64,000 bases of DNA from Limnoperna fortunei. Taxonomy: Eukaryota > Mollusca > Bivalvia > Mytilida > Modiolidae. Location of the stretch: positions 20,610,460 to 20,674,459 of the forward strand of contig OX104112.1 of NCBI GenBank assembly GCA_944474755.1, written 5' to 3'. The notes under the pieces are model-generated. The model searched no databases. It saw nothing but the letters and a program-made list of their open reading frames with translations, and was not told the DNA's origin. Every line of letters begins with the position of its first letter. Position 1 is the first letter of the stretch. A program made the translations under genes and the position numbers. Below, in pieces: positions 2,806-33,358 of this stretch.

Positions 2806-3385
2806 TATTAAAAATGGATAAAATGTGAAATACATCCATTCTTGGCAAAAAAACATAGAAAGTACATAAATGATGTCTTTTGGTTGCAAATGTTTGCCAA
2901 AAATTGGCGAGGACAATACTGCACTGCTTTGTATTGCGGCAGTTTTTTGAAGCAGATTATTTAATATTAACACATTAACTGAGTGAATAATGAACCAGCC
3001 ATACTACGGCGAGAGCAACATGTTTACAGATGTTAGGTTTGTCAACAATGTTTCATTGAAATCATCCGATAACTCTATGACATATTCAGCTGTGGTAATA
3101 TGGCGAGTATTTAACTTTGATTGTAATGCAGACATTTTACCACAAAGTTGTGTATTAAAGCAACCAAATCGTAAATTTTTTAAGTGGTAAATTTGTTTTT
3201 GTCAACAATCAAATTAGCATTTTCAAAACTTCGGATAGACACATTTTGTCAACAGGAGGGACATAACTGTAGGTGACATTTGGTAGCATTTTTTTAAGAA
3301 AGAATTTACTAGTTATCTCCGATTCAATATATTTTTTCTCTTTTTTGGTAATTGTATTGTTTGTTCATGCCTTCCAATGGCCCAT
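2806..3385. other. No recognised feature
   Basis: AT-rich spacer between a SINE and a minisatellite. Two short open frames (2788-2973 minus, 2990-3190 plus) carry no recognisable domain, and I do not support either as a gene. Confidence 0.4.
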
Positions 3386-4030
3386 AATTGGTTATTTAAG
3401 TATCTTATCTTAATTGGTTAATAAAGTATCTTATCTTAATTGGTTAATTAATTATTTTATCCTAATTGGTTAATTAGGCATCTTATCTTAATTGATTAAT
3501 AAAGTATCTTATTGTAATTGGTTAATTTAGTATCTTATCTTAATTGGTTAATAAAGTATCTTATCTTAATTGGTTAATAAAGTATCTTATCTAAATTGGT
3601 TACTAAAGTACCTTATCTTAATTGGTTAACAAAATATCTAATCTTAATTGGTTAATAAAGTATCTTATCTTAATTAATTAATTAAGTATCTTATCTTAAT
3701 TGGTTAATAAGGTTTCTTATCTTAATTGGTTAAAAAAATATTTTATCTTAATTGGTTAATAAAGTATCTTATCCTAATTAATTAATAAAGTATCTTATCT
3801 TAATTGGTTAATAAAATATCTTATCTTGATTGGTTGATAAAATATCTTATCTTAATTGGTTAATAAGGTATATTATCTTAATTGGTTAATAAAATATCTC
3901 ATCTTAATTGGTTAATAAAGTATCTTATTATAATTGGTTAATAAAGTATCTTATCTTAATTAATTAATAAAGTATCTTATCTTAATTGGTTAATTAAATA
4001 TCTTATCTTAATTGGTTATTAATGTATCTT
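3386..4030 (+). repeat. 26-bp AT-rich minisatellite, ~25 copies
   Basis: The unit is 26 bp: aattggttaataaag followed by tatcttatctt. Successive starts at 3386, 3412 and 3438 give exactly 26. Variants include aattaattaa in place of aattggttaa. The sequence is about 80% AT and is bounded by unrelated AT-rich DNA. Confidence 0.95.
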
Positions 4031-4682
4031 TTATATACATCAAAACGAATGTAAACTGCTAACATTTCCAAAGAATGTGTCAAATTATTTTAGTTTGCCG
4101 CTTTACAGAATAGCAAAAGGGAAAGAAAATAGAAGAACCACAATATTAAGCGTGTTAATAATATTAATTGATTTCCTTAGATTAAAATTAAATTTTTGAA
4201 TTGTTGTAAATAGTAATGGTCAGTTTTTAATACATAGTGGGAATTTGATTAATATGCATTTGTTTTTATTTTTGTTTTACTTTTTATATTTTCTATATGT
4301 TATTGTTGTCTAATTTTAATCTAATATGTCGTATAGTTAATAAGTCTTATGTTGTTTGCTACACTATAAATATGTTTTTTTTAATTCTTCAATCACTTTT
4401 ACACAAATTATTATAAACAACTTAATTGTAATATAAAACAAAAAAAAACAGTGTAATGAATATATTTAATAAGCTGGTTTAATCTGATGAACCCATCTAT
4501 AACCAAACAAACCTAACTTTTTTAATTGTGCGACTGAAAGTACCAGGATGTTTAATTAAAGCATTTTTAATAATAATTAATAATAATTTTGTTGTTTTAA
4601 AAACACAAAGTCGTATATCTTTATTTGACCCTAATTAATCGAGAACTACGTTTATAAATTGTTTAAGTTATTCCTTAATTTC
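4031..4682. other. No recognised feature
   Basis: Very AT-rich spacer with poly-A/T runs. No coding or RNA signal is visible. Confidence 0.4.
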
Positions 4683-4850
4683 GGTTGATCACCGGTGTGT
4701 TAACACGAGAGTCACCAGTTCGGGGCTAACTTCGAGCAAGCTAAATGAACAAGGATTGTCAGTTTATCTCCTGAAGCTCAGAGTTTTTACAGGACACTTG
4801 GGCTTCTGACGTTGAACTTGAAATCATCAACACTGTAATTTATACAAGTA
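4683..4850 (+). mobile_element. Decayed SINE fragment
   Basis: Recognisable pieces in order are 'gttgatcaccggtgtgttaac', 'cgggg.taacttcgagc', 'aacaaggattgtcagttt.tc' and a degenerate 3' part. The order matches the intact SINE at 396, but identity is low and the tail is lost. It abuts the following 34-bp array. Confidence 0.5.
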
Positions 4851-4852
4851 TC

Positions 4853-6184
4853 TACAAAGTGAATAGGAATGCATCAACGAATATTCCATACACAGTGAAT
4901 AGGAATGCATCAACGAATTTTTATACACAGTGAATCGGAATGCATCAACGAATTTTTATACACAGTGAATCGGAATGCATCAACGAATTTCATACACAGT
5001 GAATAGGAATGCATCAACGAATTCCATACACAGTGAATAGGAATGATTTAACGAATTTCATACACAGTGAATAGGAATGCATCAACGATTTTCATACACA
5101 GTGAATAGGAATGCATCAACGAATTCCGTACACAGTGAATAGGAATGCATTAACGAATTTCATACACAGTGAATAGGAATGCATTAACGAATTTCATACA
5201 CAGTGAATAGGAATGCATCAACGAATTTCATACACAGTGAATAGGAATGCATCAACGAATTTCATACACAGTGAATAGGAATGCATCAACGAACTCCATA
5301 CACAGTGAATAGGAATGCATTAACGAATTCCATACACAGTGAATAGGAATGCATCAACGAATGTCATACACAGTGAATAGGAATGCATCAACGAATTCCA
5401 TACACAGTGAATAGGAATGCATTAACGAATTTCATACACAGTGAATAGGAATGCATTAACGAATTCCATACACAGTGAATAGGAATGCATCAACGAATGT
5501 CATACACAGTGAATAGGAATGCATCAACGAATTCCATACACAGTGAATAGGAATGCATTAACGAATTTCATACACAGTGAATAGGAATGCATTAACGAAT
5601 TCCATACACAGTGAATAGGAATGCATTAACGAATTTCATACACAGTGAATAGGAATGCATTAAAGAATTTCATACACAGTGAATAGGAATGCATCAACGA
5701 ATGTCATACACAGTGAATAGGAATGCATCAACGAATTTCATACACAGTGAATAGGAATGCATGAACGAATTTCATACACAGTCAATAGGAATGCATTAAC
5801 AAATGTCATACACAGTGAATAGGAATGCATCAACGAATTTCATACACAGTGAATAGGAATGCATTAACGAATTTCATACACAGTGAATATGAATGCATTA
5901 ACGAATTCCATACACAGTGAATAGGAATGCATTAACGAATTTCATACACAGTGAATAGGAATGCTTCAACGAATTTTATACACAGTGAATAGGAATGCAT
6001 CAACGAATTTCATACACCGTGAATAGGAATGCATCATCGAATTTCATACATCGTGAATAGGAATGCATCAACGAATTTCAATCACAGCGAATAGGAATGC
6101 ATTAACAAATTTCATACACAGTGAATAGGAATGCATCAACGAATTCCATACACAGTGAATAGGAATGCATCAACGAATTTCATA
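4853..6184 (+). repeat. 34-bp minisatellite, ~39 copies
   Basis: The unit is 34 bp: catacacagtgaatagg, then aatgcatcaacgaattt (starts 5161 and 5195). Copies vary mainly at cat(c/t)aacg and at aat(ttc/tcc/gtc). A variant marked 'gcatcaacgaatgtc' recurs at 5351, 5487 and 5691, which are 136 and 204 bp apart (4 and 6 units). This shows higher-order amplification. Each unit has an ATGCAT palindrome and many have GAATTC. It is unrelated in sequence to the 34-bp array at 651. Confidence 0.97.
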
Positions 6185-6365
6185 ACGGACGAGCTGCAGC
6201 TGATTGTCATCAGATCCACAACACAAACATTTGCAACGTTTTAATATATTTTCGTATTTTACCTGCGATTAATTTTATAACGATATAGTTGATATTTTTC
6301 TATTGTTGTTGCCTTTCTTTATTCTCTAATTCTTTTGTATTAATCTCCTTGGTGGGATTAAAGTC

Positions 6366-6394
6366 ATGGCTGGCGACGGAAAACGTACAAAAAG
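6366..6394 (+). CDS. Candidate short first coding exon
   Basis: An ATG in good translation context (G at -3, G at +4) opens MAGDGKRTK. After two further bases it meets AG|GTAAGT, a textbook metazoan 5' splice site (GT at 6395). Preceding sequence is AT-rich, with a polypyrimidine stretch but no clear promoter. No downstream exon was found: the next 2.7 kb is spacer and the 49-bp array, so the intron would have to span tandem repeats. Charged, lysine-rich N-termini fit many proteins, and I infer no function. A 29-bp match to these two signals can occur by chance, so this is a hypothesis only. Confidence 0.2.
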
Positions 6395-6895
6395 GTAAGT
6401 GCTAAATCATGTCATTTAACGAAAACAGAATACAAATATATTCGAGGTTGGTGACGGGATACACGAACATGGAGACGGGATACAAGAAAATGGAGACGAG
6501 ATATATACATCAGAGTTGATACAGAATCACGTGGTTTTATGTATGATTGTAAAAAATAAAACACTTGAGACAACAAACACTACTTATAACAGAGTCGCAA
6601 TAATTTTCATGGGTTTCTTTATTTAATTTGTATTGATTAAATTTGAAATTTTACTTTTATGTAATAAACTATTTGAATCCGTTGCCTGGTCATATTCTTA
6701 GAGTATGTGATTTTATGAGTGGGTAACAGTGACTACTGATTAATAATGATGCACCTTGGTTAACTCGGTGAGCAAAAATGATTCACGCAATAACCACTAT
6801 ATATAGAAAAAGATAATGTGCGACATTTCGCGGAAACATGCATGACTTTGTGCGAACAAATACTTGTTGAATAAAAACATTAGTTATTGCTTGAA
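6395..6895. other. Spacer with short imperfect repeat
   Basis: At 6449-6505 the phrase 'ggtgacgggatacacgaacatggagacgggatac' style repeats two to three times (gacgggatac, gacgagata). Otherwise AT-rich and featureless. Confidence 0.4.
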
Positions 6896-6899
6896 TTAT

Positions 6900-9165
6900 G
6901 TATGCCATCTGTTTTGACAATTGATGCCGTGGTGACCGGGTATTCTATGTACGCCATCTGTTTTGACAATTGATGCCTTGGTGACCTGGTATTCTATGTA
7001 CGCCATCTGTTTTGCCAATTGATGCCTTGGTGACCTGGTATCTATGTACGCCATCTGTTTCCTCTTGATTCCTCGGTGACCGGGTAATCTCTGTACGCCA
7101 TCTGTTTTCCCCTTGATGCCTTGGTGACCAGGTATTCTATGTACGCCATCTGTTTTGACAATTGATGCCTTGGTTTCCGGGTATTCTACGTACGCCATCT
7201 GTTTTCCCCTTGATTCCTCGGTGACCGGGAAATCTCTATACGCCATCTGTTTTCCTTTTGATGCCTTGGTGACCAGGTATTCTATGTACGCCATCTGTTT
7301 TGACAATTTATGCCTTGGTGACCGGGTATTCTATGCGTGCCATCTGTTTTCCCCTTGATGCCTTGGTGACCTGGTATCTATGTACGCCATCTGTTTTCCC
7401 CTTGATGCCTTGGTGACCTGGTATCTATGTACTCCATCTGTTTTGCCAATTGATGCCTTGTTGACCGGGTATTATATGTACGCCATCTGTTTTGTCAATT
7501 GATGCCTTGGTGACCTGGTATCTATGTACGCCATCTGTTTTGACAATTGATGCCTTGGTGACCTGGTATTCTATGCATGCCATCTGTTTTGACAATTAAT
7601 GCCTTGGTGACCTGGTATCTATGTACGCCATCTGTTTTGACAATTGATGCCTTGTTGACCTGGTATTCTATGCATGCCATCTGTTTTGAATATTGATGCC
7701 TTGGTGACCTGGTATTCTTTGAACGCCATCTGTTTTGACAATTGATGCCTTGGTGACCTGGTATCTGTGTACGCCATCTGTTTTGACAATTGATGCCTTG
7801 GTGACCTGGTATTCTATGTACGCCATCTGTTTTGACAATTAATGCCTTGGTGACCTGGTTTTTTATGCAAGCCATCTGTTTTGACAATTGATGCCTTGAT
7901 GACCGAGTATTCTATGTACGCCATCTGTTTTCCTCTTGATGCCTTGGTGATCTGGTATCTATGTACGCCATCTGTTTTGAAAATTGATGCCTTGGTGACC
8001 TGGTATTCTATGCACGCCATCTGTTTTGACAATTGATGCCTTGGTGACCTGGTATCCTATGCATGCCATCTGTTTTGACAATTGATGCCTTGGTGACCTG
8101 GTACCTATGTACGCCATCTGCTTTGACAATTGATGCCTTGGTGACCTGGTATTCTATGCATGCCATCTGTTTTGACAATTGATGCCTTTGTGACCTGGTA
8201 TTCTTTGAACGCCATCCGTTTTGACAATTGATGCCTTGGTGACCTGGTATCTATGTACGCCATCTGTTTTGACAATTGATGCCTTGGTGACCTGGTATTC
8301 TATGTACGCCATCTGTTTTGACAATTAATGCCTTGGTGACCTGTTTTTTTATGCACGCCATCTGTTTTGACAATTGATGCCTTGATGACCGAGTATTCTA
8401 TGTACGCCATCTGTTTTCCCCTTGATGCCTTGGTGATCTGGTATGTATGTACGCCATCTGTTTTGACAATTGATGCCTTGGTGACCGGGTATTCTATGCA
8501 TGCCATCTGTTTTGCCAATTGATGCCTGGGTGACCTGGTATTCTACATGTATGCATGCCATCTGTTTTCCCCTTGATGCCTGGGTGACCTGGTATTCTAT
8601 GTACGCCATCTGTTTTGCCAATTGATGCCTTGGTGACCGGGTATTCTATGTACCCCATCTGTTTTGCCAATTGATGCCTGGGTGACCTGGTATTCTATGT
8701 ACGCCATCTGTTTTGTCAATTAATGCCTTGGTGACCTGGTATCTATGTACGCCATCTATTTTGCCAAATGATGCCTTGGTGACCAAGTATTCTATGTACG
8801 CTATCTGTTTTGACAATTGATGCCCTGGTAACCGGGTATTCTATGTACGCCATCTGTTTTGCCAATTGACGCCTTGGTGATCTGGTATCTATGTACGCCA
8901 TCTGTTTTGAAAATTGATGCCTTGGTGACCTGGTATTCTATGCATGCCATCTGTTTTGCCAATTGATGCCTTGGTGACCGGGTATTCTATGCATGCCATC
9001 CGTTTTGCAAATTGATGCCTAGGTGACCTGGTATTCTATGTACGCCATTTGTTTTGACAATTGATGCCTTGGTGACCGGGTATTGTACGCCATCTGTTTT
9101 GACAATTGATGCTGTTGTGACCTACTATTCTATGTACGCCATTTGTTTTGCCAATTGATGCCTTT
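6900..9165 (+). repeat. 47-49-bp minisatellite, ~47 copies
   Basis: The unit is gccatctgttttgacaattg, then atgccttggtgacctgg, then tattctatgtac. Starts at 6904, 6953 and 7002 give 49 bp, and variants lacking two bases (ggtatctatg) give 47. A second variable site carries gacaattg, gccaattg, ccccttg or cctcttg. Because 49 is not a multiple of three and units differ in length, reading frames shift between copies. The long minus-strand frames here (KQMAYIEY...) are repeat translations and not a protein gene. Confidence 0.97.
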
Positions 9166-9349
9166 TATTTTTTGTTTATGCTGTATCGTCATGTTTGTCG
9201 ATCCGATACTTGATACGCTTGCTGGTTTGTAGACTCTTTAGACTATTATATAATATTTTGAACAACCTGTATTGTGTTTTTACACGATCCCAGTGGACTT
9301 ATATTATTCCATCACCGAGTGAAAAAATACTGTAAGCATTTAGAGTTAA

Positions 9350-9393
9350 ACGCCACTGATGAGTCTTAAGTAGACGAAACGCGCGTCTGGCCT
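9350..9393 (+). ncRNA. Hammerhead ribozyme, copy 1
   Basis: Stem I strand ACGCCA (9350-9355) is followed by the invariant core CTGATGA (9356-9362). Stem II is GTCT (9363-9366) paired with AGAC (9372-9375). Core GAAA spans 9376-9379. A very short stem III lies in ACGCGCGT, and the GTC cleavage triplet ends at 9387. The closing stem I strand is TGGCCT (9388-9393), which has one mismatch (C opposite C), so stem I is weaker than in copies 2 and 3. Confidence 0.8.
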
Positions 9394-9861
9394 AATGAAA
9401 TTGTCATAATGGTAATTTTGATTACATCTTGTTGAAATATTTGAGCAAAGCCAAGTAACAGCACGGCACGTCCCCGGCTGGCGGACTGTGGAAGCAACTA
9501 TTTTGGGTTAAGTTGGAAAGGAGAAAGTTTAAGATTAATATGTTATGCCTTGTTTACGTCATTTATTTATATTGACATTCAATGACTAAGGCCATTCGTT
9601 GGTCAGTCTTTGTCTAAATTTTTGACAAGAAACACCGTCATTTGTATCGTTGCATAATCTTCTAGACTTGTATATCACTTTTTGTTTATGCTGTATCGTC
9701 ATGTTTGTCGATCCGATACTTAATAAGCTTGCTGGTTAGTAGACTCTTTAGACTATTATATAATATTTTGAACTACCTGTATTGTGTTTTTACACGATCA
9801 CCCAGTGGACTTATATTATTCCATCACCGAATGAAAAAATACTTTAAACATTTAGAGTTAA

Positions 9862-9905
9862 ACGCCACTGATGAGTCTTAAGTAGACGAAACGCGCGTCT
9901 GGCGT
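9862..9905 (+). ncRNA. Hammerhead ribozyme, copy 2
   Basis: All core elements are intact: ACGCCA (9862-9867), CTGATGA (9868-9874), stem II GTCT/AGAC with loop TAAGT, GAAA (9888-9891), short stem III, and GTC ending at 9899 as the predicted cleavage site. TGGCGT (9900-9905) restores a perfect six-pair stem I. Stem III has only two or three pairs. In other animal retrozymes such short stems are linked to activity as dimers in tandem transcripts. Confidence 0.88.
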
Positions 9906-10371
9906 AATTAATTTGTCACCTTGGTAATTTTGATTACATCTTGTTGACATATTTGAGCAAAGCCAAGTAACAGCACGGCACGTCCCCGGCTGGCGGACTT
10001 GGGAAGCAACTATTTTGGGTTAAGTTGGAAAGGAGAAAGTTTAAGATTAATATGTTATGCCTTGTTTACGTCATTTATTTATATTGACATTCAATGACTA
10101 AGGCCATTCGTTGGTCAGTCTTTGTCTAAATTTTTGACAAGAAACACCGTCATTTGTATCGTTGCATAATCTTCTAGACTTGTATTTTATTTTTTGTTTA
10201 TGCTGTATCGTCATGTTTGTCGATCCGATACTTAATAAGCTTGCTGGTTGGTAGACTCTTTAGACTATTATATAATATTTTGAACTACCTGTATTGTGTT
10301 TTTACACGATCCCAGTGGACTTATATTATTCCATCACCGAATGAAAAAATACTTTAAGCATTTAGAGTTAA

Positions 10372-10415
10372 ACGCCACTGATGAGTCTTAAGTAGACGAA
10401 ACGCGCGTCTGGCGT
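10372..10415 (+). ncRNA. Hammerhead ribozyme, copy 3
   Basis: Identical in core and stems to copy 2: ACGCCA (10372-10377), CTGATGA (10378-10384), GAAA (10398-10401), cleavage predicted after C10409, and TGGCGT (10410-10415). Confidence 0.88.
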
Positions 10416-10639
10416 AATGAATTTGTCACCTTGGTAATTTTGATTACATCTTGTTGACATATTTGAGCAAAGCCAAGTAACAGCACGGCACGTCCCCGGC
10501 TGGCGGACTTGGGAAGCAACTATTTTGGGTTAAGTTGGAAAGGAGAAAGTTTAAGATTAATATGTTATGCCTTGTTTACGTCATTTATTTATATTGACAT
10601 TCAATGACTAAGGCCATTCGTTGGTCAGTCTTTGTCTTC

Positions 10640-11050
10640 ACGTCTATGCACACACCGACAACTGCCCTGTCTGTACCCGTCCACCCAGCGTCCAATCCAC
10701 TTCCCGTTCGGCTACTGACCAACTGCCCTTTCCATATCTTCACGTCCACCCACAGACCAACTGCCCTACGCATATCTTTACGTTCACATACCGACCATTT
10801 GCCTCATCAATATCTACCCGTCAAACTACTGATTAACTTCCCCATCAATATCTACCTGCCCACATACCGACCACTTTCCCTATCTATATCTACCTGTCCA
10901 CCAATCAACCAACTGCCTTAGCTGTACCCGTCCACATACCGAATTCTCAAACTATATCTACTCGTCCACCTACCAACTGCCGCATCTATATCTACCCGTC
11001 CACCTTCCAACCTACTGCTTTATCTATATCTACCCGTCCACCTACCTACC
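10640..11050 (+). repeat. 37-40-bp pyrimidine-rich minisatellite, left part
   Basis: Degenerate units are built around tatctatatctacccgtcca, followed by 'cctaccgaccaactgcc' (for example 10984 and 11023). The array starts abruptly at the end of the hammerhead repeat. It is interrupted at 11054 by an inverted-repeat element and resumes at 11644. Confidence 0.85.
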
Positions 11051-11053
11051 ATC

Positions 11054-11643
11054 TATAGTCAATTTTACCGTGTCATTCCGACGGGATTTTGCTTCACAAA
11101 ATGGAAAACTGCTACCACGTTTGGTCGAGTTTATGGTCCTTTAGTAGATCTTTTATTCCACTTTTTGAAAGTAACAATTATTTTCCACAGTTAATCGGCT
11201 TTTTGAAATGCGGCCGTTTTTTCATTTTGCCAGATCGATTTTCCATACTAAATTTTGACCTTGTTTTGAACGGAAGTGTACGTTAGGAAAATTCCATTGT
11301 TGTCTATTCGAAATCCTTCGGGTAATGTCGTCTGCAGTTGAAGCGGGAAAAGTCTCGCGGTTTGTTCGAATACCATTGTACGTTACGAAAACAGACGAAC
11401 GTTTGTAAACAAAATTAGACCCCTTAAGATACAAAAATGGCTGACTTCCTATGGAAAATCGATCTGGCAAAATGAAAAAACGGCCGCATTTCAAAAAGCC
11501 GAATAACTGTTTAAAATAATTGTTACTTTCAAAAAGTGGAATAAAAGATCTACTAAAGGACCCTAAACTCGACCAAACGCGGTAGCAGTTTTCCATTTTG
11601 TGAAGCAAAATCCCGTCGGAATGACACGGTAAAATTGACTATA
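11054..11643. mobile_element. 590-bp element with 194-bp terminal inverted repeats
   Basis: The left arm (11054-11247) begins TATAGTCAATTTTACC. The right arm (11450-11643) is its reverse complement, ending GGTAAAATTGACTATA. The arms match at roughly 95% by eye. A unique 202-bp centre (11248-11449) has no transposase. Flanks fit a TA target duplication (TA|TAGTC...GACTA|TA), as in Tc1/mariner-type non-autonomous elements, although the palindromic TATA makes the exact boundary ambiguous. It interrupts the pyrimidine-rich array, so it inserted after that array formed. Open frames starting MLHKMENCY on each strand are the two arms read in mirror orientation. Confidence 0.85.
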
Positions 11644-12271
11644 CTTTATCTTTGTCTTCCCGTCAACCTAGCTACTGCCCTATCTATATCTACCCGTCCA
11701 CCTTCTTACTGTCCTATATATTTCTAACCGTCCACCTACCGACCAACTGTCCTATCTATCTATCTACTCGTCCATAAATTAACAGACCAACTGCACTATC
11801 TATATCTACCCGTCCACCTACCTAGACTGTCCTATCTATTTCTACCAGTCCACTTACCGATCATCTGACCTATCTATTTCTACCCGTACACATACCGTCC
11901 AAATAACGTATCAATATCTACCCGTCAAAGTACCCGATCAATATCTACCCATCAAACTACCCGTCCACATACTGATAAATAATTCCCTTTGTATATCTTC
12001 CCGTCCACCTACCGACGAACTGCCCTTTCTACGTCTTCCAATCCACCTACATAATACCCTTAATATATCTACCTGTCCAACTACCTACTACCCTATCTAT
12101 ATCTTCCCATCCACCGACCATCCAACTGCCCTATCTATATCTTCCAGTCCACCTTCTGACCTATATATATCTTCCCATCCACCAACCAACCATCTGCCCT
12201 ACCCATGTCTATCTACCCGTTCACCGTCCAACTTACCTATCGATATCTACCCTTTCACCTACCTACCGTCC

Positions 12272-12272
<1 letters not shown>
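11644..12272 (+). repeat. 37-40-bp pyrimidine-rich minisatellite, right part
   Basis: Continuation of the array left of the inverted-repeat element. Units again carry ctatctatatctacccgtcc and ccacctaccgaccaactg, with more divergence toward the right end. Confidence 0.85.

Positions 12273-12274
<2 letters not shown>

Positions 12275-12314
<40 letters not shown>
12275..12314. repeat. (TA)n microsatellite
   Basis: About 20 uninterrupted TA dinucleotides at the end of the pyrimidine-rich array. Confidence 0.98.
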
Positions 12315-17866: not shown

Positions 17867-18591
17867 CTAATGCAAGCACAATCCATGCATTGTATAAAAT
17901 GCACCACGTGTCAGTGTGATGTTTGTATGGAGCAGACATTGTGTTATATGAACCACAAGTATATCTAATGCAAGTACAATCCATGCATTGTGTAAAACTC
18001 ACCACATGTCAGTATAATGTTTGTATAAGAGCATACATTGCGTTATATGAAGTATATCTAATGCAAGTATAATCTATATATTTAGTTTAACAGCACCACA
18101 GATCAGTCTGAAGTAAGTACAAAACGTACAATGTGTAAAACGCATCACATGTCAGTATGATATTTGTATAAAGCAGCTATTGTGTTATAGCATCACATGT
18201 ATATTAAATGCAAGTCGTAGACATACATTTCGTTAAACAGCAGAATAGGTCAGTCTAATGTAAATACAAAACGTACATTTGTTAAAACGCACCGCATGTT
18301 AGTACGATTTTTGTATAAAGGACACATTGTGTTATAGGCCCGACGATTATATTTTATGCAAGTACAATCCATACATTGTGTAAAATGCACCGCATGCTAA
18401 CATAATGTCTGTATAGAGCAAACATTGCGTTATATGAACCACAAGTATATCTTATGCAATTACAATCAATGCGTTGCGTTGAACAGCACAACAGGTCATC
18501 CCGATATTATTCAAAACATACATTGTTGTTAAACGCACCAGATGTCGTTATGATGTCTGTAGAAAGCACACATTTTTTATACCCACCACGA
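17867..18591 (+). repeat. ~50/99-bp satellite, block 3
   Basis: Continuation of the two-type monomer array between SINE fragment and repeat A copy 3. Confidence 0.9.
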
Positions 18592-19026
18592 CTATATTTG
18601 ATTGATTGATTGATTGATTGATTGGATGTATACTTTACGTTTAGCGAGCAGTATTTTGGCTATTCAGGACGGGAACAAGTTTACAAACAATAAATCAACT
18701 GAAAGTGGAGTGGGATGGGTCACGGGAAAAACAATTTGACTGCCACTGGAAAAGTATGGAGTTTTGGGTAGAGACGGAGAACTTAGCCTTTTGTAGCGGC
18801 TACAATGAGCAGACTCTTTTTCGAAGTCTACAAAAAAGGTCTTTGTCATGCAAGGAGCGCGGCACTCTCCAAACACGTTACCCAGTACGGTCCGCGGTCA
18901 GGCTTTCCGTACTATGACATAACAACCCCACCCACAACGAGAGGGTCTCCCCAATTCGCCTACCGGGGACGCGCTGGGCTGTTCTGTGGGTCGAGCACTG
19001 AGAACCCTCCCGGTATTGTCCCAGCG
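18592..19026 (+). mobile_element. Dispersed repeat 'A', copy 3
   Basis: Starts 1387 bp after copy 2 with a longer (TTGA)n run. It is otherwise similar, including tccagcg-like 'gtttagcgagcag' and the GC-rich second half. Confidence 0.7.
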
Positions 19027-19099
19027 ATTATATTTGATGTAAGTAAAATCTATACATTGTGTTGTATAGCACAACATGTCAGTATGATATAAAAACAAA

Positions 19100-19312
19100 A
19101 CGTACATGAACTAAGGTTGAGGGTTCGTGTCTCACCGCGGGCAGGGTGTACTCGACTATAATCTTAATTGACAAGGATTGTCAGTTTTCCTACCGAAGGT
19201 CGGCTGTTTTCTCCGGGTACTCCGGCTTCCTCCCCAATACAATCTGAACCCCATGACATAGTTGACAAATTCCTGACAATGGCGTTAAACATCATTCAAA
19301 CAAATAAACAAA
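19100..19312 (+). mobile_element. 5'-truncated SINE inside satellite
   Basis: Same truncation point as at 16322, with a full 3' part and a caaataaacaaaacg tail. Confidence 0.75.
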
Positions 19313-20067
19313 ACGCATATTGTGCAAACGCACAACATGTCAGTATAGTGATTGTATAAAGCAGATATTGGATTTTACGCAACACAAGTATATCTAATGC
19401 AAGCACAATCCATGCATTGTATAAAATGCACCACGTGTCAGTGTGATGTTTGTATAGAGCAGACATTGTGTTATATGAACCACAAGTGTATCTTATGAAA
19501 GTACAATCCATGCATTGTGTAAAACTCACCACATATCAGTATGATGTTTGTATAGATCATACATTGCGTTATATGAACGACAAGTATATCTTATGCAAGT
19601 ACAATCTATATATTTAGTGATAGAGCACCACAGATCAGTCTGAAGTAAGTACAAAACGCACAATGTGTAAAACGCATCATATGTCAGTATGATATTTGTA
19701 TGAAGCAGCTATTGTGTTATAGCACCACATGTATATTTAATGCAAGTCGTAGACTGACATTACGTTAAACAGCAGAACCAGCCAGTCTAATATAAATACA
19801 AAAGGTACATTTACTAAAACGCACCGCATGTTAGTACGATGTTCGTATAAAGCAGGCATTGTGTTATAGGCCCGACAATTATATTGTATGCAAGTACAAT
19901 CCATACATTGTGTAAAACACACAGCATGTTAACATGATGTCTGCATAGAGCAAACATTGCGTTATATGAACCACAAGTATATCTTATGCAATTACAATCA
20001 ATACGATGCGTTGTACAGCACAACAGGTCATCCCGATATTATTCAAAACGTGCATTGTTGTTAAACG
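19313..20067 (+). repeat. ~50/99-bp satellite, block 4
   Basis: Last satellite block before the macrosatellite. Its 3' part (about 19737-20067) is closer to the segment at 27261-27591 than to the equivalent part of the other copies (shared 'accagccagtctaatataaa'). Confidence 0.9.
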
Positions 20068-21950
20068 AGCCTTTTGTAGCGGCTACAATGAGCCTACTCT
20101 TTTTCGAATTCTACAAAAGGGGTCTTTGCCTTGCAAGGAGCGTGGCACTCTCCAAACACGATACCTACTACCGTCCGCGGTCAGGCTTTCCGTATTATGA
20201 CCCCACCCCACAACGACAGGGTCTCCCCAATTCGCCAACCGGGGACGCGCTGGGCTGCTCTGTGGGTTGAGCACTGAGAACCCTCCCAGTATGGTCCCAA
20301 CGATTATATTTGATGCAAGTAAAATCTATACATTGCGTTGTATAGAACAACAGGTCAGAATGATGTAAGTACAAAACGTACATGCACTAAGGTTGCGGGT
20401 TCGTGTCTCACCGCGGGCAGGGTGTGCTTGACTCCAATCTTAATTGACAAGGATTGTCAGTTTTCCTACCGAAGGTCGGCTGTTTTCTCCGGGTACTCCG
20501 CCTTCCTCCCCAAAAAAATCTGAATGCGATGACATAGTTGACAAATTCCTGATACTGGCGTTAAACATCATTCAAACAAATAAACAAAACGTATATTATG
20601 CAAACACACAACATGTCAGTATAGTGCTTGTATACAGCAGATATTGAGTTTTACTCAACACTAGTATATCTACTGCAAGCACAACCCGTGCATTGTATAA
20701 AACGTACCACATGTCAGTGTGATGTTTGTATAGAGTAGACATTGTGTTATATGAACCACAAGTATATCTAATGCAAGTACAATCCATGCATTGTTTAAAA
20801 CTAACCACATATCAGTATGATGTTTGTATAGAGCATGCATTGCGTTATATAAAACGACAAGTATATCTTATGCAAGTACAATCCATGCATTGTGTAAAAC
20901 TCACCACATATCAGTATGATGTTTGTTTAGAGCATACATTGCGTTATATAAAACGACAAGAATATCTTATGCAAGTACAATCTATATATTTAGTTTTAGA
21001 GCACCACAGATCAGTCTGAAGTAAGTACAAAACGTACAATGTGTAAACGCATCACATGTCAGTATGATATTTGTATGAATCTATACATTGCGTTGTATAG
21101 AACAACAGGTCAGTATGATGTAAGTACATGCACTAAGGTTGCGGGTTCGTGTCTCACCGCGGGCAGGGTGTACTCGACTCCATTCTGTTTTCTGCGGGTA
21201 CTCCGGCTTCCTCCCAAATAAAATCTGAACGCCATGTCATAGTTGACAAATTCCTGACAATGGCGTTAAACATCATTTAAAAAAATAAACAAAACGTATA
21301 TTGTACAAACACACAACATGTCAGTATAGTGCTTGTATACAGAAGATATTGAGTTTTACGCAACACAAGTATATCTACTGCAAGCACAATCCATGCATTG
21401 TATAAAACGCAACACACGTCAGTGTGATGTTTGTATAGAGCATACATTGCGTTATATGAACGACAAGTATATCTAATGCAAATACAATCTATATATCTAG
21501 TGATAGAGCACCACAGATCAGTCTGAAGTAAGTAGAAAACGTACAATGTGCAAAACGCATCACATGTCAGTATGATATTTGTATGAAGCAGCTATTGTTT
21601 AATAGCACCACATGTATAGTTAATGCAAGTCGTAGACAGACATTACGTTAAACAGCAGAACAAGTCAGTCTAATGTAAATACAAAACGTGCATTTGGTAA
21701 AACGCACCGCATGTTATTACGATGTTTGTATAAAGCAGACATTGTGTTATAAGCCCGACAATTATATTGTATGCAAGTACAATCCATACATTGTGTAAAA
21801 CACACCGCATGTTAACATGATGTCTGCATAGAGCAAACATTGCGTTATATGAACCACAAGTATATCTTATGCAATTACAATCAATACGATGCGTTGTACA
21901 GCACAACAGGTCATCCCGATATTATTCAAAACGTGCATTGTTGTTAAACG
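20068..21950 (+). repeat. 1.88-kb macrosatellite unit 1 (1883 bp)
   Basis: Content in order: 5'-deleted repeat A (20068-20310), satellite, 5'-truncated SINE (20380-20590), a run of 99-bp satellite dimers, a second internally deleted SINE (21123-21290), and satellite to the next unit. The unit begins at the junction aaacg|agccttttgtagc, where the first part of repeat A and adjoining satellite are missing. Open frames repeated in every unit (for example MQLQSIRCVVQHN...) come from satellite and repeat A and have no protein features. Confidence 0.95.
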
Positions 21951-23829
21951 AGCCTTTTGTAGCGGCTACAATGAGCCTACTCTTTTTCGAATTCTACAAA
22001 AGGGGTCTTTGCCTTGCAAGGAGCGTGGCACTCTCCAAACACGATACCTACTACCGTCCGCGGTCAGGCTTTCCGTATTATGACCCCACCCCACAACGAC
22101 AGGGTCTCCCCAATTCGCCAACCGGGGACGCGCTGGGCTGCTCTGTGGGTTGAGCACTGAGAACCCTCCCAGTATGGTCCCAACGATTATATTTGATGCA
22201 AGTAAAATCTATACATTGCGTTGTATAGAACAACAGGTCAGAATGATGTAAGTACAAAACGTACATGCACTAAGGTTGCGGGTTCGTGTCTCACCGCGGG
22301 CAGGGTGTGCTTGACTCCAATCTTAATTGACAAGGATTGTCAGTTTTCCTACCGAAGGTCGGCTGTTTTCTCCGGGTACTCCGCCTTCCTCCCCCAAAAA
22401 ATCTGAATGCCATGACATAGTTGACAAATTCCTGATACTGGCGTTAAACATCATTCAAACAAATAAACAAAACGTATATTATGCAAACACACAACATGTC
22501 AGTATAGTGCTTGTATACAACAGATATTGAGTTTTACTCAACACTAGTATATCTACTGCAAGCACAACCCGTGCATTGTATAAAACGTACCACATGTCAG
22601 TGTGATGTTTGTATAGAGTAGACATTGTGTTATATGAACCACAAGTATATCTAATGCAAGTACAATCCATTGTTTAAAACTCACCACATATCAGTATGAT
22701 GTTTGTATAGAGCATGCATTGCGTTATATAAAACGACAAGTATATCTTATGCAAGTACAATCCATGCATTGTGTAAAACTCACCACATATCAGTATGATG
22801 TTTGTTTAGAGCATACATTGCGTTATATAAAACGACAAGTATATCTTATGCAAGTACAATCTATATATTTAGTTTTAGAGCACCACAGATCAGTCTGAAG
22901 TAAGTACAAAACGTACAATGTGTAAACGCATCACAGGTCAGTATGATATTTGTATGAATCTATACATTGCGTTGTATAGAACAACAGGTCAGTATGATGT
23001 AAGTACATGCACTAAGGTTGCGGGTTCGTGTCTCACCGCGGGCAGGGTGTACTCGACTCCATTCTGTTTTCTGCGGGTACTCCGGCTTCCTCCCCAATAA
23101 AATCTGAACGCCATGTCATAGTTGACAAATTCCTGACAATGGCGTTAAACATCATTTTAAAAAATAAACAAAACGTATATTGTACAAACACACAACATGT
23201 CAGTATAGTGCTTGTATACAGAAGATATTGAGTTTTACGCAACACAAGTATATCTACTGCAAGCACAATCCATGCATTGTATAAAACGCAACACACGTCA
23301 GTGTGATGTTTGTATAGAGCATACATTGCGTTATATGAACGACAAGTATATCTAATGCAAATACAATCTATATATCTAGTGATAGAGCACCACAGATCAG
23401 TCTGAAGTAAGTAGAAAACGTACAATGTGCAAAACGCATCACATGTCAGTATGATATTTGTATGAAGCAGCTATTGTTTAATAGCACCACATGTATAGTT
23501 AATGCAAGTCGTAGACAGACATTACGTTAAACAGCAGAACAAGTCAGTCTAATGTAAATACAAAACGTGCATTTGGTAAAACGCACCGCATGTTATTACG
23601 ATGTTTGTATAAAGCAGACATTGTGTTATAAGCCCGACAATTATATTGTATGCAAGTACAATCCATACATTGTGTAAAACACACCGCATGTTAACATGAT
23701 GTCTGCATAGAGCAAACATTGCGTTATATGAACCACAAGTATATCTTATGCAATTACAATCAATACGATGCGTTGTACAGCACAACAGGTCATCCCGATA
23801 TTATTCAAAACGTGCATTGTTGTTAAACG
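21951..23829 (+). repeat. 1.88-kb macrosatellite unit 2 (1879 bp)
   Basis: As unit 1, but lacking 4 bp (tgca) in 'aatccatgcattgttt' near 22667. It shares this deletion only with unit 3, so units 2 and 3 are sister copies. Confidence 0.95.
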
Positions 23830-25708
23830 AGCCTTTTGTAGCGGCTACAATGAGCCTACTCTTTTTCGAATTCTACAAAAGGGGTCTTTGCCTTGCAAGG
23901 AGCGTGGCACTCTCCAAACACGATACCTACTACCGTCCGCGGTCAGGCTTTCCGTATTATGACCCCACCCCACAACGACAGGGTCTCCCCAATTCGCCAA
24001 CCGGGGACGCGCTGGGCTGCTCTGTGGGTTGAGCACTGAGAACCCTCCCAGTATGGTCCCAACGATTATATTTGATGCAAGTAAAATCTATACATTGCGT
24101 TGTATAGAACAACAGGTCAGAATGATGTAAGTACAAAACGTACATGCACTAAGGTTGCGGGTTCGTGTCTCACCGCGGGCAGGGTGTGCTTGACTCCAAT
24201 CTTAATTGACAAGGATTGTCAGTTTTCCTACCGAAGGTCGGCTGTTTTCTCCGGGTACTCCGCCTTCCTCCCCCAAAAAATCTGAATGCCATGACATAGT
24301 TGACAAATTCCTGATACTGGCGTTAAACATCATTCAAACAAATAAACAAAACGTATATTATGCAAACACACAACATGTCAGTATAGTGCTTGTATACAGC
24401 AGATATTGAGTTTTACTCAACACTAGTATATCTACTGCAAGCACAACCCGTGCATTGTATAAAACGTACCACATGTCAGTGTGATGTTTGTATAGAGTAG
24501 ACATTGTGTTATATGAACCACAAGTATATCTAATGCAAGTACAATCCATTGTTTAAAACTCACCACATATCAGTATGATGTTTGTATAGAGCATGCATTG
24601 CGTTATATAAAACGACAAGTATATCTTATGCAAGTACAATCCATGCATTGTGTAAAACTCACCACATATCAGTATGATGTTTGTTTAGAGCATACATTGC
24701 GTTATATAAAACGACAAGTATATCTTATGCAAGTACAATCTATATATTTAGTTTTAGAGCACCACAGATCAGTCTGAAGTAAGTACAAAACGTACAATGT
24801 GTAAACGCATCACAGGTCAGTATGATATTTGTATGAATCTATACATTGCGTTGTATAGAACAACAGGTCAGTATGATGTAAGTACATGCACTAAGGTTGC
24901 GGGTTCGTGTCTCACCGCGGGCAGGGTGTACTCGACTCCATTCTGTTTTCTGCGGGTACTCCGGCTTCCTCCCCAATAAAATCTGAACGCCATGTCATAG
25001 TTGACAAATTCCTGACAATGGCGTTAAACATCATTTTAAAAAATAAACAAAACGTATATTGTACAAACACACAACATGTCAGTATAGTGCTTGTATACAG
25101 AAGATATTGAGTTTTACGCAACACAAGTATATCTACTGCAAGCACAATCCATGCATTGTATAAAACGCAACACACGTCAGTGTGATGTTTGTATAGAGCA
25201 TACATTGCGTTATATGAACGACAAGTATATCTAATGCAAATACAATCTATATATCTAGTGATAGAGCACCACAGATCAGTCTGAAGTAAGTAGAAAACGT
25301 ACAATGTGCAAAACGCATCACATGTCAGTATGATATTTGTATGAAGCAGCTATTGTTTAATAGCACCACATGTATAGTTAATGCAAGTCGTAGACAGACA
25401 TTACGTTAAACAGCAGAACAAGTCAGTCTAATGTAAATACAAAACGTGCATTTGGTAAAACGCACCGCATGTTATTACGATGTTTGTATAAAGCAGACAT
25501 TGTGTTATAGGCCCGACAATTATATTGTATGCAAGTACAATCCATACATTGTGTAAAACACACCGCATGTTAACATGATGTCTGCATAGAGCAAACATTG
25601 CGTTATATGAACCACAAGTATATCTTATGCAATTACAATCAATACGATGCGTTGTACAGCACAACAGGTCATCCCGATATTATTCAAAACGTGCATTGTT
25701 GTTAAACG
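23830..25708 (+). repeat. 1.88-kb macrosatellite unit 3 (1879 bp)
   Basis: Near-identical to unit 2, including the 4-bp deletion. Confidence 0.95.
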
Positions 25709-27591
25709 AGCCTTTTGTAGCGGCTACAATGAGCCTACTCTTTTTCGAATTCTACAAAAGGGGTCTTTGCCGTGCAAGGAGCGTGGCACTCTCCAAACAC
25801 GATACCTACTACCGTCCGCGGTCAGGCTTTCCATATTATGACCCCACCCCACAACGACAGGGTCTCCCCAATTCGCCAACCGGGGACGCGCTGGGCTGCT
25901 CTGTGGGTTGAGCACTGAGAACCCTCCCAGTATGGTCCCAACGATTATATTTGATGCAAGTAAAATCTATACATTGCGTTGTATAGAACAACAGGTCAGA
26001 ATGATGTAAGTACAAAACGTACATGCACTAAGGTTGCGGGTTCGTGTCTCACCGCGGGCAGGGTGTGCTTGACTCCAATCTTAATTGACAAGGATTGTCA
26101 GTTTTCCTACCGAAGGTCGGCTGTTTTCTCCGGGTACTCCGCCTTCCTCCCCCAAAAAATCTGAATGCCATGACATAGTGGACAAATTCCTGATACTGGC
26201 GTTAAACATCATTCAAACAAATAAACAAAACGTATATTATGCAAACACACAACATGTCAGTATAGTGCTTGTATACAGCAGATATTGAGTTTTACTCAAC
26301 ACTAGTATATCTACTGCAAGCACAACCCGTGCATTGTATAAAACGTACCACATGTCAGTGTGATGTTTGTATAGAGTAGACATTGTGTTATATGAACCAC
26401 AAGTATATCTAATGCAAGTACAATCCATGCATTGTTTAAAACTCACCACATATCAGTATGATGTTTGTATAGAGCATGCATTGCGTTGTATAAAACGACA
26501 AGTATATCTTATGCAAGAACAATCCATGCATTGTGTAAAACTCACCACATATCAGTATGATGTTTCTTTAGAGCATACATTGCGTTATATAAAACGACAA
26601 GTATATCTTATGCAAGTACAATCTATATATTTAGTTTCAGAGCACCACAGATCAGTCTGAAGTAAGTACAAAACGTACAATGTGTAAACGCATCACATGT
26701 CAGTATGATATTTGTATGAATCTATACATTGCGTTGTATAGAACAACAGGTCAGTATGATGTAAGTACATGCACTAAGGTTGCGGGTTCGTGTCTCACCG
26801 CGGGCAGGGTGTACTCGACTCCATTCTGTTTTCTGCGGGTACTCCGGCTTCCTCCCCAATAAAATCTGAACGCCATGTCATAGTTGACAAATTCCTGACA
26901 ATGGCGTTAAACATCATTTAAAAAAATAAACAAAACGTATATTGTACAAACACACAACATGTCAGTATAGTGCTTGTATACAGAAGATATTGAGTTTTAC
27001 GCAACACAAGTATATCTACTGCAAGCACAATCCATGCATTGTATAAAACGCAACACACGTCAGTGTGATGTTTGTATAGAGCATACATTGCGTTATATGA
27101 ACGACAAGTATATCTAATGCAAATACAATCTATATATCTAGTGATAGAGCACCACAGATCAGTCTGAAGTAAGTAGAAAACGTACAATGTGTAAAACGCA
27201 TCATATGTCAGTATGATATTTGTATGAAGCAGCTATTGTGTTATAGCACCACATGTATATTTAATGCAAGTCGTAGACTGACATTACGTTAAACAGCAGA
27301 ACCAGCCAGTCTAATATAAATACAAAAGGTACATTTAGTAAAACGCACCGCATGTTAGTACGATGTTCGTATAAAGCAGGCATTGTGTTATAGGCCCGAC
27401 AATTATATTGTATGCAAGTACAATCCATACATTGTGTAAAACACACAGCATGTTAACATGATGTCTGCATAGAGCAAACATTGCGTTATATGAACCACAA
27501 GTATATCTTATGCAATTACAATCAATACGATGCGTTGTACAGCACAACAGGTCATCCCGATATTATTCAAAACGTGCATTGTTGTTAAACG
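25709..27591 (+). repeat. 1.88-kb macrosatellite unit 4 (1883 bp)
   Basis: Carries private variants shared with unit 6: tttgccgtgcaagg in place of tttgccttgcaagg, catagtggacaaattcc, and gcaagaacaatcc. Its last ~330 bp instead resembles the segment before unit 1. Confidence 0.95.
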
Positions 27592-29474
27592 AGCCTTTTG
27601 TAGCGGCTACAATGAGCCTACTCTTTTTCGAATTCTACAAAAGGGGTCTTTGCCTTGCAAGGAGCGTGGCACTCTCCAAACACGATACCTACTACCGTCC
27701 GCGGTCAGGCTTTCCGTATTATGACCCCACCCCACAACGACAGGGTCTCCCCAATTCGCCAACCGGGGACGCGCTGGGCTGCTCTGTGGGTTGAGCACTG
27801 AGAACCCTCCCAGTATGGTCCCAACGATTATATTTGATGCAAGTAAAATCTATACATTGCGTTGTATAGAACAACAGGTCAGAATGATGTAAGTACAAAA
27901 CGTACATGCACTAAGGTTGCGGGTTCGTGTCTCACCGCGGGCAGGGTGTGCTTGACTCCAATCTTAATTGACAAGGATTGTCAGTTTTCCTACCGAAGGT
28001 CGGCTGTTTTCTCCGGGTACTCCGCCTTCCTCCCCCAAAAAATCTGAATGCCATGACATAGTTGACAAATTCCTGATACTGGCGTTAAACATCATTCAAA
28101 CAAATAAACAAAACGTATATTATGCAAACACACAACATGTCAGTATAGTGCTTGTATACAGCAGATATTGAGTTTTACTCAACACTAGTATATCTACTGC
28201 AAGCACAACCCGTGCATTGTATAAAACGTACCACATGTCAGTGTGATGTTTGTATAGAGTAGACATTGTGTTATATGAACCACAAGTATATCTAATGCAA
28301 GTACAATCCATGCATTGTTTAAAACTCACCACATATCAGTATGATGTTTGTATAGAGCATGCATTGCGTTATATAAAACGACAAGTATATCTTATGCAAG
28401 TACAATCCATGCATTGTATAAAACTCACCACATATCAGTATGATGTTTGTTTAGAGCATACATTGCGTTATATAAAACGACAAGTATATCTTATGCAAGT
28501 ACAATCTATATATTTAGTTTTAGAGCACCACAGATCAGTCTGAAGTAAGTACAAAACGTACAATGTGTAAACGCATCACATGTCAGTATGATATTTGTAT
28601 GAATCTATACATTGCGTTGTATAGAACAACAGGTCAGTATGATGTAAGTACATGCACTAAGGTTGCGGGTTCGTGTCTCACCGCGGGCAGGGTGTACTCG
28701 ACTCCATTCTGTTTTCTGCGGGTACTCCGGCTTCCTCCCCAATAAAATCTGAACGCCATGTCATAGTTGACAAATTCCTGACAATGGCGTTAAACATCAT
28801 TTAAAAAAATAAACAAAACGTATATTGTACAAACACACAACATGTCAGTATAGTGCTTGTATACAGAAGATATTGAGTTTTACGCAACACAAGTATATCT
28901 ACTGCAAGCACAATCCATGCATTGTATAAAACGCAACACACGTCAGTGTGATGTTTGTATAGAGCATACATTGCGTTATATGAACGACAAGTATATCTAA
29001 TGCAAATACAATCTATATATCTAGTGATAGAGCACCACAGATCAGTCTGAAGTAAGTAGAAAACGTACAATGTGCAAAACGCATCACATGTCAGTATGAT
29101 ATTTGTATGAAGCAGCTATTGTTTAATAGCACCACATGTATAGTTAATGCAAGTCGTAGACAGACATTACGTTAAACAGCAGAACAAGTCAGTCTAATGT
29201 AAATACAAAACGTGCATTTGGTAAAACGCACCGCATGTTATTACGATGTTTGTATAAAGCAGACATTGTGTTATAGGCCCGACAATTATATTGTATGCAA
29301 GTACAATCCATACATTGTGTAAAACACACCGCATGTTAACATGATGTCTGCATAGAGCAAACATTGCGTTATATGAACCACAAGTATATCTTATGCAATT
29401 ACAATCAATACGATGCGTTGTACAGCACAACAGGTCATCCCGATATTATTCAAAACGTGCATTGTTGTTAAACG
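27592..29474 (+). repeat. 1.88-kb macrosatellite unit 5 (1883 bp)
   Basis: Preceded by the same satellite variant as unit 1, 7524 bp upstream. That distance equals the sum of four units and suggests a four-unit block duplication or conversion. Confidence 0.95.
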
Positions 29475-31350: not shown

Positions 31351-31424
31351 TTAAACGCACCAGATGTCGGTATGATATCTGTATAAAGCACACATTTTTG
31401 TTATACCCACCACGATAACATTTA

Positions 31425-31840
31425 ATTGATTAATTGGATGTATATCATACGTCCAGCGAGCAGTATTTCGGCTACTCGGGACGGGAACAAGTTAACAAAC
31501 AATAAATCAACTGAAAATGGGGTGGGATGGGTCACGGGAAATACACTTTTGACAGCCACTGGAAAAGTATGGAGTTTTGGGTAGAGACGTAGAACGTAGC
31601 CTTTTGTAGCGGCTACAATGAGGCTACACTTTTTCGAATTCTACAAAAAAGGTCCTTGTCGTGCAAGGAGCGTGGCACTCTCCAAACACGTTACCCATTA
31701 CTGTCCGCGTTCAGGCTTTCCGTATTATGACCTAACAATCCCACCCCACAACGAGAGGGTCTCCCCAATTCGCCAACCGGGGACGCGCTGGGCTGCTCTC
31801 TGGGTCGAGCACTGAGAACCCTCCCGGTATGATCCCAGCG
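31425..31840 (+). mobile_element. Dispersed repeat 'A', copy 4
   Basis: Full-length copy right of the macrosatellite, starting with a short ttgattaattgga run. It shows that the undeleted higher-order unit flanks the macrosatellite on both sides. Confidence 0.7.
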
Positions 31841-31916
31841 ATTATATTTGATGCAAGTAAAACATGTACATTGCGTTGTATAGACCAACAGGTCAGTATG
31901 ATGTAAGTACAAAATG

Positions 31917-32127
31917 TACATGCACTCAGGTTGCGGGTTCGTGTCTCACCGCTGGCAGGGTGTACTTGACTCCAATCTTAATTGACAAGGATTGCTAGTT
32001 TTCCTACCGAAGGTCGGCTGTTTTCTCCGGGTACTCCGGTTTCCTCCCCAATAAAATCTGGACGCCACGACATAGTTATCAAATTCCTGACAATGGCGTT
32101 AAACATCATTCAAACAAATAAACAAAA
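31917..32127 (+). mobile_element. 5'-truncated SINE inside satellite
   Basis: Same truncation as the other satellite-embedded copies, with 3' part complete. Confidence 0.75.
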
Positions 32128-32940: not shown

Positions 32941-33358
32941 TATATTTGATTGATTGATTGATTGATTGAGTGGATGTATACTTTACGTTTAGCGAGCATT
33001 ATTTCGGCTATTCAGGACTGGAACAAGTTAACCAACAATAAATCAACTGAAAGTGGGGTGGGATGGGTCACGGGAAATACAATTTTGACTGCCACTGGAA
33101 AAGTATGGAGTTTTGGGTAGAGACGAAGAACTTAGCCTTTTGTAGCGGCTACAATGAAAATACTCTTTTTCGAAGTCTACAAAAAAGGTCTTTGTCGTCC
33201 AAGGAGCGTGGCACTCTCCAAACACGTTACCCACTACGGTCCGCGGTCAGGCTTTCCGTATTATGACCTAACAACACCACCCCACAACTAAAGGGTCCCA
33301 AATTCGCCAACTGGGGACGCGCTGGGCTGCTCTCTGGGTCGGGCACGGAGAACCCTTT
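32941..33358 (+). mobile_element. Dispersed repeat 'A', copy 5, 3' truncated
   Basis: Begins with (TTGA)n and stops at 'gggcacggagaaccc', where diverged satellite follows. It lies 1516-1521 bp after copy 4. Confidence 0.7.

Follow-up and report, generated by a model that had tools for sequence, protein, structure and literature searches.

A tandem array of hammerhead ribozymes lies in a 64,000-nucleotide stretch of the Limnoperna fortunei genome (hereafter the window). The original prediction described it as a retrozyme-like array whose transcripts would cut themselves into unit-length RNAs. The locus raises the question of what class of element this is, how a repeat that codes for nothing comes to be inserted in chromosomal DNA, and which enzyme inserts it.

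The window array and its hammerheads

Coordinates of the array and its features are given in Table 1. Three units had been predicted between 9168 and 10636; the 510/512-bp repeat stands, but the array amounts to 2.89 units and begins at 9162. A 49-bp satellite reaches 9164 on the left, and on the right a 38-bp satellite is called from 10713, with related sequence recognizable by eye from 10637. The differences amount to 3 in 446 shared sites between units 2 and 3, 14 in 446 between units 1 and 3, and 19 in 510 between units 1 and 2; private differences number 13 in unit 1, two in unit 2 and none in unit 3. Units 2 and 3 resemble each other far more than either resembles unit 1 and so descend from a later common ancestor; this locus does not show the pattern of one rolling copying event with uniform decay afterwards. 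The divergence of unit 1 from the other two is as large as that between units of different arrays. The units have a GC content of 35.5–35.9%. The remainder of the unit is non-coding, as had been proposed, and the longest stop-free frame on the circle is 71 codons. Reverse transcriptase (RT) and GIY-YIG domains are thus both missing, and the unit is not an autonomous Penelope-like element (PLE). A simple pattern search found no Pol III boxes in the unit.

Table 1. Positions of the array, its units and its sequence features in the window
Feature	Position	Strand	Remarks
Retrozyme array, 2.89 units	9162–10636	+	49-bp satellite left, 38-bp satellite right
Unit 1, 510 bp	9169–9678	+	96.3–96.9% identity to units 2 and 3
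Unit 2, 512 bp	9679–10190	+	Reference for unit coordinates
Unit 3, incomplete	10191–10636	+	Stops at unit position 446–449; 99.3% identity to unit 2
Hammerhead 1	9350–9393	+	33.0 bits; stem I pair broken by G>C at 9392
Hammerhead 2, intact	9862–9905	+	Predicted cut after 9899
Hammerhead 3, intact	10372–10415	+	Predicted cut after 10409
Site A of unit 1, TCTTCTAGACTTGTAT	9656–9673	+	Usual 3′ end of arms in other copies, TA tract next
Site A of unit 2	10168–10185	+	Same site as in unit 1
Site B of unit 1, CTCTTTAGACT..TATAT	9234–9256	+	Second usual 3′ end in other copies
Site B of unit 2	9744–9766	+	Same site as site B of unit 1
Site B of unit 3	10256–10278	+	Same site as site B of unit 1
Penelope-homologous stretch, first part (unit 413–512)	10091–10190	+	In unit 2
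Penelope-homologous stretch, second part (unit 1–147: tail, site B, leader)	9679–9825	+	In unit 2
Hairpin GACT-AA-GGCCA/TGGTC-AGTC	10606–10630	+	Just inside array 3′ end; GGCCA/TGGTC arms recur in PLE 3′ end

The surroundings are rich in other repeats. Five unlike tandem arrays (26, 34, 49, ~511 and 38 bp), the retrozyme among them, lie within 9 kb (3385–12314), and a (TA)20 tract at 12275–12314 closes the run. A higher-order repeat of ~1.88 kb, built from 49/98-bp minisatellites and including several near-unchanged repeats, occupies 18274–33766, and a 161-bp satellite (4.9 copies, 95%) occupies 54078–54861. A match between the retrozyme unit and the 1.88-kb repeats at 18–34 kb (34 nt, 79%, E 0.027) was weak and was dropped. 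A broken LINE remnant is present at 43331–44559, with a zf-RVT domain at 44242–44556; a protein search with this fragment matched only short unnamed proteins.

The three type I hammerhead cores of the original prediction are present. Their GTC triplets end at 9387, 9899 and 10409, which places the predicted cut sites one unit apart at spacings of 510 and 512 bp. The predicted six-pair stem I (ACGCCA/TGGCGT) is found in units 2 and 3 but not in unit 1, where ACGCCA lies opposite TGGCCT. In an Rfam check against RF00163, hammerheads 2 and 3 score 39.0 bits, above the gathering score of 34, whereas hammerhead 1 falls below it; the E values for hammerheads 1, 2 and 3 are 2.4e-4, 2.4e-6 and 2.4e-6. 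RAGATH-1 and the other sub-threshold Rfam matches in the window, hammerhead 1 excepted, were treated as noise. Chance matches to a looser core pattern are expected at ~3e-7 per 64 kb if equal base frequencies are assumed. The same pattern occurs at three places in a prokaryote collection, against ~1.3 expected by chance, and these were rejected as hammerheads, being near chance with none of the three loci at the Rfam threshold. Four pattern scans of viral contigs returned no relatives, and phage and plasmid records gave no match.

Stem III, missing from the original prediction, is weak as a hairpin (+2.4 kcal/mol). Its eight letters are self-complementary and give −13.3 kcal/mol as a two-strand duplex, and a two-strand double hammerhead is predicted at −34.3 against −8.1 for a single strand. 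These energies make it plausible that the hammerheads act as a dimer. Only the 510-nt product (9900–10409) has an intact ribozyme at both ends; the 512-nt product depends on unit 1 with its broken stem I. In fold predictions, which take no tertiary contacts into account, the ribozyme fold lies above the circular minimum by 5.2 kcal/mol for the 510-nt product and by 10.3 for the 512-nt product. The predicted circles are 59–63% paired and show no extra stability over 60 shuffles each (z +0.76 and +0.63). As modeled, the folds favor the ribozyme less than had been supposed. Some mussel retrozyme circles are likewise predicted without a free ribozyme, as described in PMC7229834.

The ribozyme is among the better-conserved parts of the unit. 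Across 31 representatives (L051 was excluded from this count), diversity is 1.03% in the ribozyme, 1.95% in the part homologous to the PLE described below and 4.46% in the rest, and the ribozyme ranks 10th of the 117 windows compared. Among 109 sampled genome units, stem I is kept in 102, stem II in all 109 and the core in 103. This pattern of sequence conservation favors a role for cutting.

The assignment to a retrozyme-like class is upheld. A type I hammerhead, tandem arrangement, lack of coding capacity and ~36% GC all match the metazoan non-LTR retrozymes (PMC7229834), and these sequence features support placing the array in that known class. It resembles the retrozymes of Mytilus galloprovincialis as described by Cervera and de la Pena (2020, PMC7229834), which are also tandem, non-coding and low in GC, carry type I hammerheads and form many dispersed arrays. 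The unit of 510–512 bp is longer than the ~350–390 bp of M. galloprovincialis and the ~170–400 bp reported overall (PMC7229834). It also lies above the ~150–450 bp range of the class, a criterion we take as descriptive since sizes are given as species-specific (PMC7229834). The GC content is under the class limit of 45–50%. A stable self-paired circle is described for the class, whereas the circle predicted here is not more stable than shuffles. Plant LTR retrozymes (PMC4918200) are likewise hammerhead-bearing, non-autonomous retroelements described as spreading via circular RNA, but they have type III hammerheads, LTRs and Gypsy-type machinery (according to PMC7229834), in contrast to the type I ribozyme here.

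Ends, targets and layout of the genomic copies

The proposed search for further copies was productive. In 1.335 Gb on 285 contigs we found at least 57 hammerhead-model matches over threshold and at least 195 matches to the window unit. Twenty loci were fetched together with the loci returned by searches, and tiling covered 31 partly overlapping loci and the window, most of the tiled loci having been picked by similarity to the window unit. Arms in these loci range from part of one unit to many units and have scattered 5′ ends.

The 3′ ends cluster at two places in the unit, site A (TCTTCTAGACTTGTAT, unit ~505) and site B (CTCTTTAGACTTnTATATAT, unit ~88), and in most cases a tract of TA or of mixed CA and TA comes next. 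We scored 36 outer ends picked by hand; left aside were those that coincide with the edge of a locus, those of short internal pieces and of a handful of secondary copies, and that of the window array, which is a miss. The AGACT motif of A or B lies within 16 nt of 29 of the 36 and within 30 nt of 33; four lie 18–27 nt past the motif and three have none. A pattern match also assigned 33 of the 36 to A or B, but the baseline for its p-value was too narrow, and the motif distances are used instead. A dinucleotide run of at least 8 nt is present at 28 of the 36 ends, compared with 69 of 5000 random 44-nt pieces from the window and 224 of 5000 from the loci. The exact site A sequence followed by a ten-letter TA tract has 741 matches in the genome and its reversed control has none; six of these matches, all on contig C1, were fetched, and all six are retrozyme ends. 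Short TA tracts are often, not always, present in the 5′ flanks of one-way arrays (13 looked at). In a related family with ~551-bp units, 85% identical, a site B end is followed by a TA tract at each of the three loci seen.

The predicted ribozyme cut (unit 221) coincides with none of the 36 ends; the nearest, in an 83% copy, is at unit 210. Together with multi-unit arms that cross the cut, this indicates that the template was circular or a multimer left uncut rather than a linear monomer released by cleavage.

The window array itself ends at neither site A nor site B and has no TA flank. No target duplication was found at this copy, the best flank pairing being matched by 359 of 500 random controls. 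Judged by its sequence, it is atypical and probably a decayed member of the family. The hairpin just inside its 3′ end (rank 24/512) at first resembled an RT start site, but the genome copies usually end at A or B instead. A unit with an internal break, in which unit position 449 is joined to 51, is seen at L068 (2550–2600); the window array likewise stops at 446–449.

Some loci combine families. At L004 (1–2005), the 551-bp and 510-bp families lie tail-to-tail on one short TA tract, which looks as though the second insertion reused the TA tract of the first. At L006 (618–1924), 541-bp and 510-bp unit types are mixed in a single array, which suggests template switching or recombination between families.

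In many loci, minus and plus arms are joined at their 5′ sides with their outer ends at A or B. Such head-to-head loci are L013, L019, L046, L047, L049, L055, L056, L058, L062–L064 and L067, the join of L062 reading N. Both outer ends could be scored in seven arrays: five pair an A end with a B end (L013, L019, L049, L056 and L058), and two have A ends on both sides (L047 and L055, where one of the A-type ends lies 22 nt past the motif). Head-to-head and A/B calls were made by eye, for retrozymes and PLEs alike. The two arms of L058 match the reference at 89% and 97% and so are of unlike age; its A/B pair may therefore reflect two separate insertions. Debris separates the arms of L047.

Units of one array are closely similar on and across strands. 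Within arrays, the median divergence of 302 same-strand pairs and that of 209 opposite-strand pairs are both 0.2%, counts dominated by L045/L046, a single array of ~28 units. The median between arrays is 2.94% (5484 pairs; 110 units, 32 arrays). Opposite-strand means are 0.2% for L062, 0.41% for L045/L046, 0.43% for L019 and 0.8% for L056, and higher for L047 (1.72%), L043 (2.6%; not head-to-head) and L041 (3.01%). Same-strand heterogeneity is seen at L018 (2.39%), L041 (1.8%), L051 (5.42%), L052 (2.55%), L053 (1.69%) and in the window (2.32%). At four of the six head-to-head loci with units on both strands (L019, L045/L046, L056 and L062; not L041 or L047), the two strands are less than 1% apart, a smaller distance than separates them from any other fetched array. 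This similarity fits a single template for both arms. Low within-array divergence would also result from a linear multimer template or from later homogenization. The L045/L046 array (C2:46.59–46.61 Mb) extends beyond the ~28 head-to-head units that were fetched, with a mean divergence of 0.4% on and across strands.

The Penelope-like element of the same genome

At L068, the retrozyme array with the internal break continues into a site B tail and adjoins a 349-codon frame with a GIY-YIG domain. The 3′ untranslated end of this frame carries the site A motif followed by a TA tract. A genome search with the L068 protein gave 118 scored matches, 93–100% identical, among 4235 candidates. Frames of at least 913 codons are present in 25 of the 118, with a TGA noted in one. 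RVT_1 (E 1.6e-8) and GIY-YIG (E 2.9e-5) lie within one 843-codon stretch, and by domain content the element is an endonuclease-bearing PLE. It is young in this genome.

The ends of the PLE and the retrozyme are homologous. Over unit positions 413–512–147, a stretch that spans sites A and B, 209 of 242 aligned bases are identical, with BLAST E values down to ~1e-45. A weaker similarity to the retrozyme at the start of the PLE frame has a score reached by one of 500 shuffles. Beyond the homologous stretch, the retrozyme has its hammerhead and the PLE its coding sequence. Neither Rfam at five loci nor a motif scan of L072 revealed a hammerhead in the PLE leader; the present form of this PLE is therefore not a straightforward source of the ribozyme.

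The PLE also has the same two ends and the same layout. By eye, among fetched loci, 11 PLE ends lie at A and five at B after the same ~93-nt tail, and three copies run on. Neighbors within 6.5 kb are arranged head-to-head in 15 cases, tail-to-tail in one and in the same direction in 12 (nine of the 12 spaced 3233–3234 bp), a count that covers 51 of the 118 matches, those judged near another PLE or a retrozyme. A second, more distant Penelope-like frame (38–56% identical in pieces) lies tail-to-tail with a retrozyme across a TA tract at L056 (3565–4530).

These arrangements resemble those described for endonuclease-containing PLEs. In the rotifer Adineta vaga, the terminal repeats of Penelope copies are inverted and lie head-to-head, and one of them may bear a tail (PMC3846280). 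The protein of the anole PLE, Anolis Poseidon, is reported to cleave and extend both strands and to prefer AT-rich DNA; its cDNA starts inside the RNA, not at the 3′ end, at two sites, and the optional tail is the piece between them (PMC11167929). Tandem and head-to-head copies, an optional 3′ tail and AT-rich targets are thus common to these elements and the retrozyme, and the PLE found here similarly has RT and GIY-YIG in one frame. The retrozyme differs in coding for nothing and in its tail of ~93 nt, against 30–40. The anole PLE has a hammerhead, unlike the leaders scanned in this genome. Its start site is described as not homologous to the cut DNA (PMC11167929), whereas here both sites lead into TATAT and TA tracts are the targets.

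Proposed mechanism and its alternatives

The retrozyme has the same ends, layout and tail marks as the PLE and contains the PLE start sites, which points to the PLE enzyme as mover. We consider it likely, on this sequence evidence, that the retrozyme is a non-autonomous derivative of the PLE and is moved by its enzyme. The ribozymes, the preferred 3′ ends, the TA targets, the head-to-head layout and a PLE with shared ends can be read directly from the genome, and the following steps would account for them. Genomic arrays would give rise to multimeric transcripts, which the hammerheads would cleave to ~511-nt units whose ends are joined to form circles. Circles formed from joined unit ends are known for the retrozyme class. 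The PLE protein, with its RT and GIY-YIG endonuclease, would act in trans, binding the PLE-derived stretch (unit ~393–512–147) and cutting TA-rich DNA. Synthesis of cDNA would start inside the RNA at A or B and could run on for any distance, most probably around a circle. Annealing may help at this step, given the TATAT into which both sites lead and the TA tract that serves as target. Extension from both cut strands would leave arms head-to-head, often with an A end on one side and a B end on the other.

The form of the template is less firmly placed than the PLE origin and the PLE enzyme as mover, and we lean slightly towards a circle. A variant with overlapping probability, in which the PLE enzyme moves linear uncut multimers and hammerhead and circle play no part, appears rather unlikely to us. 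It would suffice for arms longer than one unit, it accommodates the heterogeneous arrays, and hammerhead mutants of the anole PLE are reported still to insert in vitro (PMC11167929). The conservation of the ribozyme speaks against it, as do the closely similar strands at four of six head-to-head loci, which fit one template for both arms.

Head-to-head arrays could instead arise by self-priming, the cDNA folding back, rather than by extension of both strands at the cut. This is the explanation preferred for rotifer Penelope elements in PMC3846280, and the arms of L046 do join at near-equal unit positions (251 and 255). At other loci the junctions are far apart (L013 188/318, L019 44/453, L049 99/322, L055 441/350 and L056 217/425), and the outer ends of these five arrays are start sites on both sides, which makes self-priming improbable.

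We regard it as very improbable that the arrays are satellite DNA with chance hammerheads, spread by unequal exchange or rolling-circle DNA replication without reverse transcription. The closeness of units 2 and 3 in the window and the ~28-unit array would suit such a process, but satellite exchange is not expected to give many dispersed insertions with arms set head-to-head, their 5′ ends scattered and their 3′ ends preferring two places at TA tracts, and the array ends are common to a retrotransposon. Least probable of all is a LINE or other RT as mover, with the retrozyme and the PLE merely having a common insertion hot spot; a LINE remnant does lie in the window and TA tracts are common insertion targets, but the 209 shared bases sit within both elements and not in the target. 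The two ends and head-to-head layout common to retrozyme and PLE are, moreover, a known PLE signature in the descriptions given in PMC3846280 and PMC11167929.

PLEs have been proposed, on indirect grounds, as strong candidate movers of metazoan retrozymes (PMC7229834), and a review states that these retrozymes have no conserved motif from which an autonomous partner could be deduced (PMC7761336). What appears new here, from sequence comparison, is the ends, the target and the sequence-matched PLE partner, which the relevant parts of those two papers leave open. Among titles and the openings of abstracts, with few subscription papers covered, we found no prior report of a sequence link between a retrozyme and a PLE; this does not prove novelty.

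The motif and the partner are now seen in one genome, with common ends, start sites, targets and layout, and a ribozyme repeat is tied by descent to a Penelope-like element. The candidate mover can be tested at the bench with a defined RNA, protein and target, and the retrozyme may also provide a naturally occurring case of rolling-circle reverse transcription into the DNA of chromosomes. A broader reading, which we offer tentatively and would put somewhat short of even, is that animal retrozymes generally are Penelope-derived parasites, that their self-made RNA circles contain both RT start sites of the PLE, and that the PLE enzyme copies one circle repeatedly from both strands of a cut in a TA tract. 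If this is true, repeated copying of a circle explains tandem arrays, odd lengths and head-to-head symmetry in one step.
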